Assembly: GCA_017856115.1 (NCBI GenBank)
Contig: JAFMFM010000020.1
Span: 1 to 32,690, forward strand
Source of the DNA: Actinomycetota bacterium
Lineage (GTDB): Bacteria; Actinomycetota; Acidimicrobiia; Acidimicrobiales; Ilumatobacteraceae
Direction of reading: 5' to 3'
DNA: 32,690 bases
Shown here: positions 19,600 to 25,509 of the stretch, one piece after another
Position numbering within the stretch: the first letter of the stretch is position 1
How the letters are laid out: each line of letters starts with the position of its first letter
Notes under the pieces: generated by a model
What the model was told of the DNA's origin: nothing
Databases searched by the model: none
The model's input: the letters and a program-made list of their open reading frames with translations, nothing else
Position numbers and translations under genes: made by a program

Positions 19600-20922
19600 A
19601 TGACTCGACCTGGAATGTACTCCGGTGTGGCAACCGATGACGCAATGAACCTCGCAATGTCGGCCAAGGCCGTGCCGTTGTACGAGGCGGTGAAGAAGTT
19701 CATCGCCGAGGAGATCGAGCCGGTCACTCGCACGTACTTCGAGTTGGGTGAAGGACGTGCCGAGCGCTGGAGTTACGGCGAAGGTCAGCTGGAGCTCCTC
19801 GAGCAATTGAAGAACAAGGCAAAGAAGGCCGGTTTGTGGAATTTCTTCCTGCCCAATGCCGAGACCGGTGAGGGATTGTCGAACCTCGACTACGCATACA
19901 TCGCCGTGGAGTTGGGGAAGAACCCCATTGCATCCGAGGTGATGAATTGCAGCGCACCCGACACCGGCAACATGGAGGTGCTCGAGCGCGTTGGTACGCC
20001 CGAACAGAAGGAGAAGTGGTTGAAGCCGCTCCTCAACGGTGAGATTCGCTCGGCGTATGCGATGACCGAGCCCGACGTGGCATCGTCCGATGCAAAGAAC
20101 CTCGAATGTCGTGCGGTGCGTGACGGGGACGAGTGGGTCATCAACGGAGAGAAGTACTACATCTCCGGCGCGGGTGATCCTCGCTGCAAAATCATGATCT
20201 GCATGTTGCTCACCAGTCCCGACGCACCGCCGCACAAGCGACACTCGCAGATTCTCGTCCCGATGGATACGCCCGGCGTGGAGATTCTCGGTCCGATGGA
20301 AGTGTTCGGTGAGGATGACGCACCACACGGACACATGCATCTTCGTTTCAACAACGTGCGCGTGCCAGCCAGCAACATGTTGCTCGGCGAAGGACGCGGA
20401 TTCGAGATCTCCCAGGTACGACTCGGACCCGGGCGAATCCACCACTGCATGCGGTCCATCGGTGCCGCGGAACGTGCGTTGGAGTTGATGGTTCGTCGCG
20501 GGTTGTCACGTGAAGCGTTCGGCAAACCGATCGCACGACTCGGCAAGAACACCGAGACGATCGCCAAGGCTCGAATTGAAATCGAAGCGATGCGTCTGAT
20601 GGTGTTGCGTGGCGCAAAGGCCATGGACACCATGGGCAACGCCGAGGCCCGCATTTGGGTGAGTGCGGTGAAGGCCATGGTGCCCGAGCGAGTGTGCAAG
20701 ATCATCGACGAAGCCATCCAGATTTTCGGTGGTACTGGGATTTCGCAGTGGACCCCGCTGGCGCGCATGTATGCGGGACAACGCACCCTGCGATTGGCCG
20801 ACGGCCCCGACGAGGTGCACTGGCACGTGGTCGGTCGCGCGGAAATCAGCCGGTTCGAAGACGATAAGCAGCCCGTTACCGAACACGACCAACGGCACCA
20901 GCGGTTCTCTGGGCCATCCTGA
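19600..20922 (+). CDS. Acyl-CoA dehydrogenase 2 (ACAD10/11-like)
   Basis: FAD-dependent acyl-CoA dehydrogenase of 440 residues. Landmarks are GLWNFFLP, YAYIAVELGKNPIASEVMNCSAPDTGNMEVL, YAMTEPDVASSDAKNLEC (FAD/substrate loop), WVINGEKYYISGAG and QIFGGTGISQWTPLARMY. Where the classical enzyme has IFEGTSE, this one has LADGPDEVH, putting Asp401 at the catalytic-base position, as in the ACAD10/11-type subgroup. Long or unusual (for example hydroxylated) acyl-CoAs are possible substrates; this is inference. The start is fixed by TAGGGT at -12 to -7. The lysine-tailed alcohol dehydrogenase follows 73 bases downstream with its own Shine-Dalgarno. Confidence 0.92.
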   Translation: MTRPGMYSGVATDDAMNLAMSAKAVPLYEAVKKFIAEEIEPVTRTYFELGEGRAERWSYGEGQLELLEQLKNKAKKAGLWNFFLPNAETGEGLSNLDYAYIAVELGKNPIASEVMNCSAPDTGNMEVLERVGTPEQKEKWLKPLLNGEIRSAYAMTEPDVASSDAKNLECRAVRDGDEWVINGEKYYISGAGDPRCKIMICMLLTSPDAPPHKRHSQILVPMDTPGVEILGPMEVFGEDDAPHGHMHLRFNNVRVPASNMLLGEGRGFEISQVRLGPGRIHHCMRSIGAAERALELMVRRGLSREAFGKPIARLGKNTETIAKARIEIEAMRLMVLRGAKAMDTMGNAEARIWVSAVKAMVPERVCKIIDEAIQIFGGTGISQWTPLARMYAGQRTLRLADGPDEVHWHVVGRAEISRFEDDKQPVTEHDQRHQRFSGPS

Positions 20923-20977: not shown

Positions 20978-20987
20978 GGGAGGGAAC
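20978..20987 (+). promoter_or_regulatory. Strong Shine-Dalgarno of the alcohol dehydrogenase gene
   Basis: GGGAGGGAAC ends about 8 bases before ATG 20996. It is the clearest ribosome-binding site in the window. It fixes the start upstream of the lysine-rich tail, so the tail is translated. Confidence 0.75.
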
Positions 20988-20995
20988 ACAGCACC

Positions 20996-22396
20996 ATGGC
21001 AGCGAAGAAGAAATCGTCGAAGAAGAAGTCCGTCAGGAAGTCGGTAAAAAAGACCAACAAGAAGTCGGCAAAGAAGACACTGAAGAAGAAGGCGACAAAG
21101 AAGAAGTCGGCGAAGAAGTCAGCCAAGAAGGCCGCGCAGGCGAAGAAGGCGGCCCCGGCCAAAGCCTCACGCACGACCGGACCCGTGGTGTCCGCCCAGC
21201 GAATGTTCAACCTTGCGGCATTGTCGGAAACGGTGTCGGGCCCGGGAGTTGCGGCGTCGCTGCCGCAACACGTGATGAAGCGCGGTCAGAAGGCCTTCAT
21301 CGTCACCGACCACGGCGTGCGTGGCGCTGGAATCGTTGCACCGATCGTGGAGAACTTGGAGAAGGCCGGTGTGAAGACGTTCGTCTTTGATGAGGTTTCA
21401 CCGAACCCGACGGATGTCAACGTGGCGGCCGGTGTCGCTGCCCTCAATCGTTTCGGTATCGACGGCACCGTGGTGGTGTTCATCGGTGGTGGTTCGGTCA
21501 TGGATTGCGGAAAGTACATTGCACTCGCGGCACCGAACGGTGTCGACAATTTGCACCTGGCGTTCGCCCCCAATTTGGATGCAAACGACCGGATCGACTT
21601 CGGCACACTTGCGCCGAAAGCACAGGCCTCCAAACCTGGTTTGCCCACCATCGCAATTCCCACCACGTCGGGTACGGCGTCGGAAACCAATGGTGGTGGT
21701 CTCATCACCGACACGCTCACCAACCCGGCGGTGCATCGCAAGTTGACCTTCAGCAACCCGTCCGTTGCGCCGGTGGCGATTCTGCTCGATCCGACACTCA
21801 CCGTTGGCATGCCGGCTCGCGGTACGGCTGCATGCGGCATGGACGTACTGACTCATGCCATCGAGTGCTACACGTCGGCCGGATCAAATCCGTACGCCGA
21901 TGCCCTCGCGTTGCATGCCATTCGATTGACGGGTCAGTGGTTGCCGAAGGCGGTAGCCAACGGCAGCGACCTCGAGGCGCGAGCACAAATGCAGGTTGCT
22001 TCGCATCTCGCTGGTCGTGCGTTCTCGTCGGGTCCGCTGCTCGGTCTCGTGCACGCAACCGGTCATCCGATTTCCGGGCAGTTGCACCAGGCTCACGGCC
22101 AAACGTTGGCCACGATGCTGCCGCACGTCATGCGATTCAACCGTGACGTGGTGGCCGAGCGCTATGCCGACGTGGGCGAGGCGCTCGGCTCCGAACACGA
22201 CCCCGAGGCGGGCATCGCAGCGGTCGAGAAGTTGTCTGCAACGGTGGGAACCAACAAGCGTTTGCGTGAGTTGGGAGCCACCAGTGACAACATCGCCGAC
22301 CTCACACAGGATGCATTGCGCGACCTCATCATCCTGAACACGGCGAAGTATCCAACCCGCGGGGACGTGCACGAGTTGTACGCCCGCGCGTTGTAG
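20996..22396 (+). CDS. Iron-type alcohol dehydrogenase with lysine-rich N-terminal tail
   Basis: A 466-residue protein in two parts. Residues 1-56 are a tail with 26 lysines, built from irregular 4-5 residue units such as KKSA, KKTL and KKAT, like a histone-H1 or HupB tail. From about residue 62 it is a group III (Fe-type) alcohol dehydrogenase: GGGSVMD (164-170, NAD(P) binding), PTTSGTASE (222-230), GMDVLTHAIE with metal ligands Asp283 and His287, and GLVHATGHPISGQLHQAHG with His353 and His367. All four metal ligands are kept, so it should be active on an alcohol/aldehyde pair. The tail probably binds nucleic acid, polyphosphate or another polyanion; this is inference. It has its own promoter and Shine-Dalgarno and ends 9 bases from the convergent Nudix gene. 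Confidence 0.93.
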   Translation: MAAKKKSSKKKSVRKSVKKTNKKSAKKTLKKKATKKKSAKKSAKKAAQAKKAAPAKASRTTGPVVSAQRMFNLAALSETVSGPGVAASLPQHVMKRGQKAFIVTDHGVRGAGIVAPIVENLEKAGVKTFVFDEVSPNPTDVNVAAGVAALNRFGIDGTVVVFIGGGSVMDCGKYIALAAPNGVDNLHLAFAPNLDANDRIDFGTLAPKAQASKPGLPTIAIPTTSGTASETNGGGLITDTLTNPAVHRKLTFSNPSVAPVAILLDPTLTVGMPARGTAACGMDVLTHAIECYTSAGSNPYADALALHAIRLTGQWLPKAVANGSDLEARAQMQVASHLAGRAFSSGPLLGLVHATGHPISGQLHQAHGQTLATMLPHVMRFNRDVVAERYADVGEALGSEHDPEAGIAAVEKLSATVGTNKRLRELGATSDNIADLTQDALRDLIILNTAKYPTRGDVHELYARAL

Positions 22397-22405
22397 ACCC
22401 ACCGG

Positions 22406-22882
22406 TCAACTCATGAGTTGTTTGCGCACGAGTTCGGCGATGTCGGTCCAATGTGCCGCAAGACCCGGGTGGAGGTCGTAACTCCCCACCTCGTGGAGCG
22501 GCACCCATCGGGTTTCTGCGGACTCATGATTCGCGGCGTAGACGCCCGCGTCGTCGTTGGTGAAGGCGATGACGGTGTCGTATCTCCAGCTGCCGTGGTC
22601 GTCGGTGAATACGTGACGCACCGCGATACGCGTCGAGTCAACCCCGACCTCCTCATGCGCCTCGCGAATCGCCGCCGACACGATGTCCTCGTGCGAATCG
22701 CGGGCACCGCCGGGAAGGGCCCACGTTCCGCCTCCGTGCGTCCAACCTGCGCGCAACTGCAACAACACGTGTGCAGCATCGAGGTCGGTTCGCACGAGCA
22801 GCAGCCCGGCGGCTCCGTGCAAACCCCAGTGCTCGCGACCGCAGTCGCAGAAGAGAAATCCGTCGCCATCCCGATGGGCCAT
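22406..22882 (-). CDS. Nudix hydrolase
   Basis: Hydrolase of nucleoside diphosphates linked to another moiety, 158 residues. The Nudix box is complete at 59-81 (G-x5-E-x7-RE-x2-EE-x-G-V, read as GARDSHE...REAHEEVGV). The N-terminus has a CDCG pair followed by HWGLHGAAGLLLVR, typical of actinobacterial members often annotated as 8-oxo-dGTP diphosphatase-like. The C-terminal WVPLHEVGSYDLHPGLAAHW is also usual. The substrate is not determined. It follows the MFS gene by 28 bases on the same strand and has no clear promoter of its own. Confidence 0.92.
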   Translation of the reverse strand: MAHRDGDGFLFCDCGREHWGLHGAAGLLLVRTDLDAAHVLLQLRAGWTHGGGTWALPGGARDSHEDIVSAAIREAHEEVGVDSTRIAVRHVFTDDHGSWRYDTVIAFTNDDAGVYAANHESAETRWVPLHEVGSYDLHPGLAAHWTDIAELVRKQLMS

Positions 22883-22910: not shown

Positions 22911-24092
22911 CTAGGCGTGCACGGGTTGTTGGGGGGTGCCACCGCGAACTACCCAACGATCTCCTGCCAGTAATCGCGCACCGGCAACGAGCGACGTCAT
23001 GACCACCCCGGCGATCACGAACGTGGTGGTGCGTCCCAACACCTCGTATGACACACCGGCGAACGACGCCGACACACCGCCCGTGAGCGTTTGCATTCCA
23101 CCCAACAGGCCCTGTGCACCAGCCTGGCGTTCCGTGGGTGCCACCATTCCCACCGCAACCCCGGAACTGGTCACCGTCATACCGTCGTTCAATGTGTGAA
23201 CCAGAAATACTGCCATGAGAAGCCATGGAATCGAGAGCGCTCCGTACAGGGTCATGCAAGCGGCACCGAACAGCATTCCGAATCCTCCGGCTCGGAAGGG
23301 TCCGATGTGCTGCACGAACCGGCCACCGTACGGCGCCATGAACACCATCGGCAGCACGAAGAGTGTCACACCAGTGTTCGCCATCCATGTTGGAGCATCG
23401 AGATCTTTCATCATCAGGGCCCACAACGAATCGAACGTACCGATCATGAAGAACACGGCAATACCGATGAGCACGCCCGCGGCAATGGCCCGGTCACGCA
23501 GCAGGTCGACGGCGAAACGTTCGGTCGGGTGGTCCTCCGCGGCGGTCTCGGGGATCCGCATGGTGAAGATCACGATCGAAATCACCAGGAGGACCGTTCC
23601 GATAAGTAGGAACGGCGCCGGGATGCCGAAAGAGTCGACCAGGAAGAGTGAGATGACCGGTCCGGCCGCGAAGCCTCCAACTTCGCACGACAGTACTCGT
23701 CCCAGATTTCGGCCGAGGTTGTCCGGCTCGCTCACGATGATGACGCGGCGCATCGCGGGCAGGGCACATCCCAGCCCGATGCCCGAGAGGAATCGAGCCC
23801 CGAGCAATTCCGGCAATGAATTCGAGAACGCCATGGCGAAGTTCCCGATGATGGCGAGTGACAAACCAAGGAAGATGAGCTGGCGCGAGCGACCTCGGTC
23901 GGCCATCGGCGCGATGGTGAGTTGGGCGAAGAACGAGGTGAAGAAGCCGATTGCAATCACCAAGCCGAGCGCACCCTCACTGATTCCGAACTCCTCGCGA
24001 TAATCATCCAGCATGGTGAACATCACCCCGTAGGCGGATGACTTCACGGCAATGGCCACGAACAATGCGATGAGCAATCGCCTGCGTGGCAC
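22911..24092 (-). CDS. Major facilitator superfamily transporter
   Basis: A 393-residue inner-membrane transporter with about 12 hydrophobic segments in two halves. Between helices 2 and 3 the loop APMADRGRSRQLIFLGL matches the MFS G-x3-D-R-x-G-R/K signature, and helix 4 has GARFLSGIGLGCALPAMRRVI. The sequence resembles drug or metabolite efflux members, but the substrate cannot be told. The start is GTG at 24092, set by TAGCCT at -12 to -7. It is divergent from an aldehyde dehydrogenase and probably co-transcribed with the Nudix gene downstream. Confidence 0.9.
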   Translation of the reverse strand: MPRRRLLIALFVAIAVKSSAYGVMFTMLDDYREEFGISEGALGLVIAIGFFTSFFAQLTIAPMADRGRSRQLIFLGLSLAIIGNFAMAFSNSLPELLGARFLSGIGLGCALPAMRRVIIVSEPDNLGRNLGRVLSCEVGGFAAGPVISLFLVDSFGIPAPFLLIGTVLLVISIVIFTMRIPETAAEDHPTERFAVDLLRDRAIAAGVLIGIAVFFMIGTFDSLWALMMKDLDAPTWMANTGVTLFVLPMVFMAPYGGRFVQHIGPFRAGGFGMLFGAACMTLYGALSIPWLLMAVFLVHTLNDGMTVTSSGVAVGMVAPTERQAGAQGLLGGMQTLTGGVSASFAGVSYEVLGRTTTFVIAGVVMTSLVAGARLLAGDRWVVRGGTPQQPVHA

Positions 24093-24129: not shown

Positions 24130-25509
24130 GTGAGCGTCATCGAGGTACTCAATCCGTTCGACCAATCCCTGGTTGGCACGGTTCCTCGCGCCGGTACTGG
24201 TGATTGTCTCGCCGCCGTCGACACGGCGCACGATGCGTTTCCCGCATGGCGTACGACGGCACCGCGCGTGCGGGCGGAAGTGCTGCGCAAGGCCTTCGAG
24301 TTGATGGTTGCCGAGCACGACGCGCTGTCGCGACTGATCGTTCGTGAAAATGGCAAGGTCCTCGCCGATGCGAGGGCGGAGGTCACCTATGCCGCAGAGT
24401 TCCTGCGCTGGTTCAGCGAGGAGGCCGTGCGAATCGACGGTGACTATCGACGTGCGCCATCCGGTTCCAACTGGCTGTTGGTATCACGTCAGCCAGTCGG
24501 CGTGTCGTTGCTGGCGACTCCGTGGAACTTTCCCGCGGCCATGGCCACCCGCAAGATAGGACCCGCCCTCGCAGCGGGTTGCACCGTGGTGTTGAAGCCG
24601 GCAAGCGACACGCCGCTAACGGCACTTGCCATCTGCGACATCCTTCGTCGCGCAGGCGTACCCGATGGCGTGGTCAACGTCGTCGTGCCCGACCCACCAG
24701 GTGACGCGGTGTCAGCGATGCTGGCCTCGGGCAAGGTGCGAAAGTTGTCGTTCACCGGCTCCACCCGGGTTGGTGCATTGTTGTTGGCGCAAGCCGCTCA
24801 GCGGATCATCAATTGTTCGATGGAGTTGGGTGGCAATGCTCCGTTGGTGGTGTTCGACGATGCCGACGTGGAGGTGGCAGTCGACGGTGCAATGCTGGCC
24901 AAGATGCGCAATGGAGGGGCCGCGTGTACGGCGGCCAACCGCTTCTTCGTCCACGAAACCATCCACGACAGATTCGTCGAAGCATTTACACAACGGATGT
25001 CGTCGTTGGTGCTCGGCAACGGCATGGATGCCGCAACGCACGTGGGACCACTCATCACTCGAGCACAACAAGACAACGTTGCATCCCTGGTCGACGAAGC
25101 CGTCGCGAGTGGAGCAACCGTGGTGTGTGGAGGCAGGCGCGCGAGCGACGAGTCGTTTGGCTACCACCCAACGGTGCTCACCGATGTGGGATTCGATGCA
25201 GCGATCCTGAAGGATGAGGTGTTCGGCCCGGTTGCTCCGATCGTGAGGTTTCGTGATGCCGACGACATCGTCACCCACTGCAATTCGGTGGAGCACGGAC
25301 TGGTGTCGTACGTATTCACCCGCGATGTGGCCAAGGGATTGCGATTCGCCGAAGCATTGGAGACCGGAATGGTCGGACTCAACCGTGGTCTCGTCAGCGA
25401 CCCAGCCGCACCGTTCGGTGGGGTCAAGGCTTCGGGCATCGGACGAGAAGGCGGCCATGACGGCTTGCTGGCGTTCCTTGAAACCAAGTATGTAGCGGGT
25501 AATTGGTAG
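24130..25509 (+). CDS. NAD(P)-dependent aldehyde dehydrogenase (succinate-semialdehyde type)
   Basis: A 459-residue aldehyde dehydrogenase oxidising an aldehyde to the acid. Motifs are TPWNFPAAMATRKIGPAL (oxyanion Asn133), VLKPASDTP (Lys156, coenzyme), FTGSTRVG, MELGGNAPLVVFDDADV with the general base Glu232, and GGAACTAANRFFV with the nucleophile Cys266. The overall pattern resembles GabD-type succinate-semialdehyde dehydrogenases, although the usual GQTC is GAAC here, so the substrate is uncertain. The start is GTG at 24130. It is 103 bases upstream of the cyclopropane synthase gene, too far to assume one operon. Confidence 0.9.
   Translation: MSVIEVLNPFDQSLVGTVPRAGTGDCLAAVDTAHDAFPAWRTTAPRVRAEVLRKAFELMVAEHDALSRLIVRENGKVLADARAEVTYAAEFLRWFSEEAVRIDGDYRRAPSGSNWLLVSRQPVGVSLLATPWNFPAAMATRKIGPALAAGCTVVLKPASDTPLTALAICDILRRAGVPDGVVNVVVPDPPGDAVSAMLASGKVRKLSFTGSTRVGALLLAQAAQRIINCSMELGGNAPLVVFDDADVEVAVDGAMLAKMRNGGAACTAANRFFVHETIHDRFVEAFTQRMSSLVLGNGMDAATHVGPLITRAQQDNVASLVDEAVASGATVVCGGRRASDESFGYHPTVLTDVGFDAAILKDEVFGPVAPIVRFRDADDIVTHCNSVEHGLVSYVFTRDVAKGLRFAEALETGMVGLNRGLVSDPAAPFGGVKASGIGREGGHDGLLAFLETKYVAGNW

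Follow-up and report, generated by a model that had tools for sequence, protein, structure and literature searches.

In the window analyzed here (the whole 32,690-nucleotide [nt] stretch of an Ilumatobacteraceae genome of 1.67 Mb that is 95% complete), an ordinary group-III Fe-type alcohol dehydrogenase (ADH) is encoded behind an added lysine-rich N-terminal tail, which is most simply explained as having been gained once, in this lineage, and is not an artifact of start calling. By analogy with known lysine-tailed proteins, we tentatively propose that the tail acts as a nonspecific electrostatic tether to nucleic acid, i.e., nucleoid DNA or RNA, a role to which we assign a little less than an even chance. 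The ADH open reading frame (ORF) comprises 466 amino acids (aa), lies at window positions 20996 to 22396 on the plus strand, and begins MAAKKKSSKKKSVRKSVKKTNKKSAKKTLKKKATKKKSAKKSAKKAAQAKKAAPAKASRTTGPVVSAQRMFNLAA; its parts and flanking genes are as follows.

19600..20922, plus strand: acyl-CoA dehydrogenase, directly upstream of ADH with a 73-nt gap
20978..20984, plus strand: Shine-Dalgarno motif GGGAGGG, 11 nt 5′ of the tail ATG, from the sequence
20996..21178, plus strand: lysine-rich tail, residues 1 to 61, with 26 K, 2 R, and 0 D/E, predicted to be disordered
21179..21202, plus strand: linker GPVVSAQR, residues 62 to 69, with the genus-wide form GPxV[ST]AQR
21203..22396, plus strand: Fe-type ADH core, residues 70 to 466 plus stop, from profiles, alignment, and fold
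22406..22882, minus strand: NUDIX-like ORF, the downstream neighbor, labeled from sequence and synteny
22911..24092, minus strand: MFS-like ORF, a conserved neighbor, labeled from sequence and synteny
24130..25509, plus strand: aldehyde (succinate-semialdehyde-like) dehydrogenase, a conserved neighbor, from profiles and synteny

Translation of the ORF bears out the 26 lysines that the initial annotation had counted in the first 56 residues, a density with a binomial chance of ~5e-25 given the lysine frequency of the core (3.0%). The densest 20-aa stretch of the tail holds 12 lysines, and the longest lysine run is KKK. The motif units are more varied than the KKSA-, KKTL-, and KKAT-like ones listed in that annotation, and the tail proper reaches residue 61 (position 21178) before the linker GPVVSAQR begins. 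AlphaFold2, run with a 22-row alignment, yielded pLDDT values of <50 for residues 1 to 70 and mostly >85 for the core. Being predicted as disordered, dense in lysine, and low in acidic residues, the tail has the histone-H1-like composition ascribed to it earlier, and it is conserved as a polycation in the genus. A start-codon error, with M70 as the real start, was rejected because a Shine-Dalgarno motif stands at the tail start, with none comparable visible before M70, and because tail and linker are kept in frame across 11 genomes. A G/A-rich Shine-Dalgarno-like motif also lies 5′ of the tail starts in congeners. The tail is apparently translated, as had been supposed.

The protein behind the tail is a complete Fe-type dehydrogenase, in agreement with the initial annotation. 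Its core matches the Fe-ADH N- and C-domain profiles (PF25137, 4.3e-50; PF00465, 3.1e-37), and in a 22-sequence alignment both the GGGS-x-x-D motif (GGGS being G164 to S167) and D283, H287, H353, and H367 are invariant, the latter four occupying what we take, based on FucO numbering and spacing, to be the metal-ligand positions. In a Foldseek comparison, the core matched Bacillus methanolicus methanol dehydrogenase 2 (8zrl_A; TMt 0.91, E 2e-34), and matches to 1,3-propanediol oxidoreductase and FucO were obtained as well. No NCBIfam equivalog reached its cut-off for ADH, the best being lactaldehyde reductase at 251 bits versus 523.

We found ADH in 11 of the 13 genomes of the genus (in one of them in two pieces), with no match in G005 and a weak match in G012. 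The lysine tail was present in all 11 congeners having a readable ADH N-terminus, our own genome counted. Isolate names of several of these genomes point to lakes, and two records (L040 and L045) are titled Bifidobacterium breve yet hold the locus of this freshwater lineage, so that they are probably mislabeled metagenome-assembled genomes. In contrast to the congeners, 24 sister orthologs (L042 to L064 and L096), which are 77 to 83% identical and occupy the same syntenic place, have no tail and start at the core with MD[PA]-x4-FGLxPM. Close homologs starting at the core, which the initial annotation had held would speak against the tail, therefore do occur, but only outside the genus. Members read from the group at 60 to 66% identity start at about the same place and lack the tail too. 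In a maximum-likelihood tree of 54 ADH cores, the tailed rows formed one group (support, 99/99) with one change; given the untailed outgroups, one gain is the simplest account, and the tailing of 11 congeners against 24 sister orthologs starting at the core argues against a mis-called start. The four genes flanking ADH are identical in type in the tailed genus and the untailed sister lineages.

Lysine tails also occur on other proteins. Our own genome was surveyed at the DNA level with a pattern matching recurrent lysine pairs, which can miss sparser tails. At one contig end (G000:C60; L137 and L141), the survey identified an AMP-binding acyl-CoA synthetase that bears a lysine tail at its N-terminus. 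It also recovered HU and TopA, both tailed C-terminally, along with a small number of ribosomal-type proteins and of other proteins whose short C-termini are rich in lysine. A 37-aa histone-H1-like protein, MAKKRKAAKKATKKKATKKATKKAAPKRRKKAAKKKK, is encoded on the minus strand at contig positions ~34421 to 34501 (L138; G000:C26:32500-36500), and mini-proteins resembling it were seen at L201, L204, L207, L210, L212, and L213. Fusion with a neighboring histone gene is not supported: the gene for the H1-like protein sits separately elsewhere, and the tails are on unrelated genes. Among relatives, the survey was opportunistic, in that loci selected by the pattern were read and not all genes. Tailed proteins of related genera were identified with Pfam and NCBIfam, except for an FtsH-like protein identified by eye; they are listed below together with the further acyl-CoA synthetase loci.

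Acyl-CoA synthetase, further N-terminally tailed loci: L216, L217, L218, L220, L224, L229, and L233 (this genus and g4)
Thiol peroxidase (Tpx), N-terminal tail: L222, L226, L232, L234, and L253 (genera g4 and g6)
Endonuclease III: C-terminal tail in L225, L228, and L231 (g4); N-terminal tail in L248 (g6)
RidA-family protein: N-terminal tail in L250 and L255 (g6); C-terminal tail in L241 (g22)
GlnII-type glutamine synthetase, C-terminal tail: L221 (one g4 genome)
PafC-like WYL regulators, N-terminal tail: L203, L206, L208, L211, L214, and L223

The initial annotation had not noted that the ADH tail has counterparts on a number of other enzymes among related genera. The acyl-CoA synthetase has its long N-terminal tail both in this genus and in its sister g4, but not in g6. 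The corresponding tree contained two label changes, the second of them solely an effect of the contig end that truncates L144, and the simplest history would be one gain before the g1/g4 split, earlier than that of the ADH tail. Since the tails of endonuclease III and RidA are at opposite ends in different genera, the tail itself seems to be the selected feature, as opposed to one domain fusion. We found no pathway explanation for the tailed set, the ADH neighbors being the same in untailed sisters. In a class-wide count for family f35 (1.0 to 1.1 Mb), the pattern matches were probably due to chance, because the matched sequences were AT-rich and the controls gave equally high counts.

As to what the ADH tail may do, its likeness to the tails of Dps, HU/HupB, TopA, and Ku points to an enzyme held on nucleic acid or polyphosphate (polyP), and we tentatively favor the former. 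DNA-binding proteins are enriched in lysine-rich low-complexity regions (PMC6821194), and Dps of Escherichia coli binds DNA via lysine-bearing N-terminal tails (PMC8999374). Known actinobacterial carriers of lysine tails are TopA, Ku, and HupB/HupS; Ku and HupB need their lysine-rich C-termini to interact with DNA, and TopA owes its processivity to lysine repeats (PMC7398561). By the same principle, the disordered polycation in front of the ADH core would hold the enzyme on nucleic acid, and with several tails exposed on each ADH particle, binding would gain from avidity. We expect several tails per particle because the closest solved relatives crystallize with many subunits, the oligomer state of ADH being deduced from chain counts of these PDB relatives together with general family knowledge.

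Several considerations weigh against a nucleic-acid tether. ADH orthologs do without the tail, and we know of no nucleic-acid role for the Fe-ADH core enzyme. There is also no obvious reason for acyl-CoA synthetase or glutamine synthetase to reside on DNA. Our guess is that protection of DNA could be a task of tailed Tpx, RidA, and endonuclease III, and perhaps of ADH if it handles aldehydes, an idea that fits neither glutamine synthetase nor acyl-CoA synthetase. Moreover, the same sequence facts would fit polyP.

That polyP is the main partner, with the tail binding chains or granules noncovalently and thereby storing, concentrating, or regulating ADH according to phosphate or stress state, strikes us as rather unlikely, though worth serious consideration. 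The polyphosphate kinase gene ppk1 (PF02503) was detected in 13 of 13 genus members, but it is equally common in untailed relatives (39 of 41 genomes), so its presence does not discriminate. The lysine density of the tail, with its KKK runs, compares well with that of Pseudomonas aeruginosa proteins positive for lysine polyphosphate modification, which have nine lysines in 20 aa, including four consecutive ones, in a study whose targets were picked for at least three consecutive lysines (PMC12077175). Set against the published values, ADH has 12 lysines per 20 aa versus at least nine, and a longest run of three versus four; the lack of a four-lysine run speaks against polyP. A precedent for both partners is the H1-like protein AlgP, which goes to polyP granules and, without polyP, to the nucleoid (PMC9239181).

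A quite different account, which we consider improbable, is that the tails arise through neutral or nearly neutral slippage of AAG-rich triplet repeats near gene ends and are tolerated as harmless, soluble extensions. ADH tails do vary in sequence and length (45 to 61 aa, 40 to 49% basic), differing by whole codons and repeat units, whereas the core is far better conserved. Even close species differ in tail length by whole codons, as do G000 and L041, in which only 1 of 405 core codons differs at the protein level. The V and A contents of the ADH and acyl-CoA synthetase tails from the same genome covary (Spearman 0.70 and 0.73, p 0.04 and 0.02, respectively; n=9; five residues tested, uncorrected), perhaps owing to a shared ligand or to a shared mutational bias, the latter being in keeping with slippage. 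Against slippage stands the near absence of acidic residues, with 250 K versus 4 D/E in 588 residues summed over the 11 ADH tails and none among 557 residues of the acyl-CoA synthetase tails. Of the four acidic residues, two precede the true start of L037 (its second ATG, the start having been called too far upstream), and the other two are the D of SRDL/SRDF adjoining the linker. When six pairs of tails were compared codon by codon, alignment gaps were whole codons, and changes at lysine codons were mainly between AAA and AAG, followed by replacements with R, S, T, A, P, V, or N; none led to GAG or GAA, though these are one transition away. The synonymous AAA/AAG exchange was the commonest lysine-codon change in most pairs. 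In addition, all 11 orthologs have kept the tail, and most repeat loci examined read as lysine in an ORF, with few in other frames. We regard the codon pattern as good but informal evidence that charge on the ADH tail is probably under selection.

Less probable still are membrane anchoring, in which the tail would attach ADH to anionic lipid, and recruitment to RNA-rich condensates. RNA and lysine-rich disordered peptides do coacervate (PMC6606616), but we see nothing hydrophobic or amphipathic among the segments of the tail. We consider it very doubtful that the tail is a platform for pupylation or acetylation controlling turnover or activity: Pup (PF05639) was detected in 11 of the 13 genus genomes, and in mycobacteria the lysine stretches of both HupB and Ku undergo acetylation (PMC7398561), but untailed relatives carry Pup equally, and one or few lysines would be enough. 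Packaging of ADH as encapsulin cargo, i.e., the encapsulating shell suggested in the initial annotation, and tethering to polyhydroxyalkanoate (PHA) granules in the manner of PhaF are both disfavored, as neither encapsulin (PF04454) nor a PhaC-type PHA synthase (PhaC_N, PF07167) was found in the 13 genus genomes (64 to 95% complete).

Extending the nucleic-acid tether beyond ADH, we can envisage, as an unlikely generalization, a localization code in small-genome freshwater Ilumatobacteraceae, consisting of interchangeable, independently acquired lysine tails on unrelated enzymes. Such tails would place ADH, acyl-CoA synthetase, Tpx, RidA, endonuclease III, and glutamine synthetase on the nucleoid or polyphosphate, thereby grouping metabolism and protection around the chromosome in a zone that needs neither membrane nor shell. 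If true, a simple electrostatic tail would be a portable localization signal in bacteria, which one lineage has placed on a number of metabolic and protective enzymes on separate occasions and at either terminus. In the open-access literature, we found nothing on a lysine-rich N-terminal extension of an alcohol dehydrogenase in Actinobacteria, nor on lysine-rich tails in Ilumatobacteraceae; lysine tails are familiar from DNA-binding proteins, and their repeated acquisition by metabolic enzymes appears to be novel. Tailed and untailed ADH orthologs, which are 77 to 83% identical, share a neighborhood, and are separated by one gain, provide a clean natural experiment.

Compared with known systems, the ADH core shares its fold, NAD motif, and metal-ligand positions with group-III Fe-ADHs (FucO, B. 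methanolicus Mdh, 1,3-propanediol oxidoreductase, and Zymomonas mobilis ADH2). It is 32 to 37% identical to PDB entries 8zrl, 3bfj, 3owo, and 1rrm, which align only from about residue 66 of ADH onward; the untailed orthologs that were read begin with the core. As for the tail, EngA and SrmB, both targets of lysine polyphosphate modification, similarly contain at least nine lysines per 20 aa (PMC12077175), but they have a run of four lysines that the ADH tail does not. PhaF and AlgP of Pseudomonas resemble tailed ADH in that an H1-like repeat tail links a particle in the cytoplasm with either the nucleoid or polyP (PMC9239181), although theirs is C-terminal and built of KPAA repeats. Dps of E. 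coli is likewise an oligomeric, redox-active protein whose N-terminal tails are flexible (PMC8999374), but those tails are short, with three K and one R, and Dps is related to ferritin and has no homology to ADH. The tails of actinobacterial HU/HupB, TopA, and Ku are K/A/P/S/T-rich and of low complexity, like that of ADH; they form the C-termini of DNA-binding proteins, whereas the ADH tail forms the N-terminus of a metabolic enzyme.
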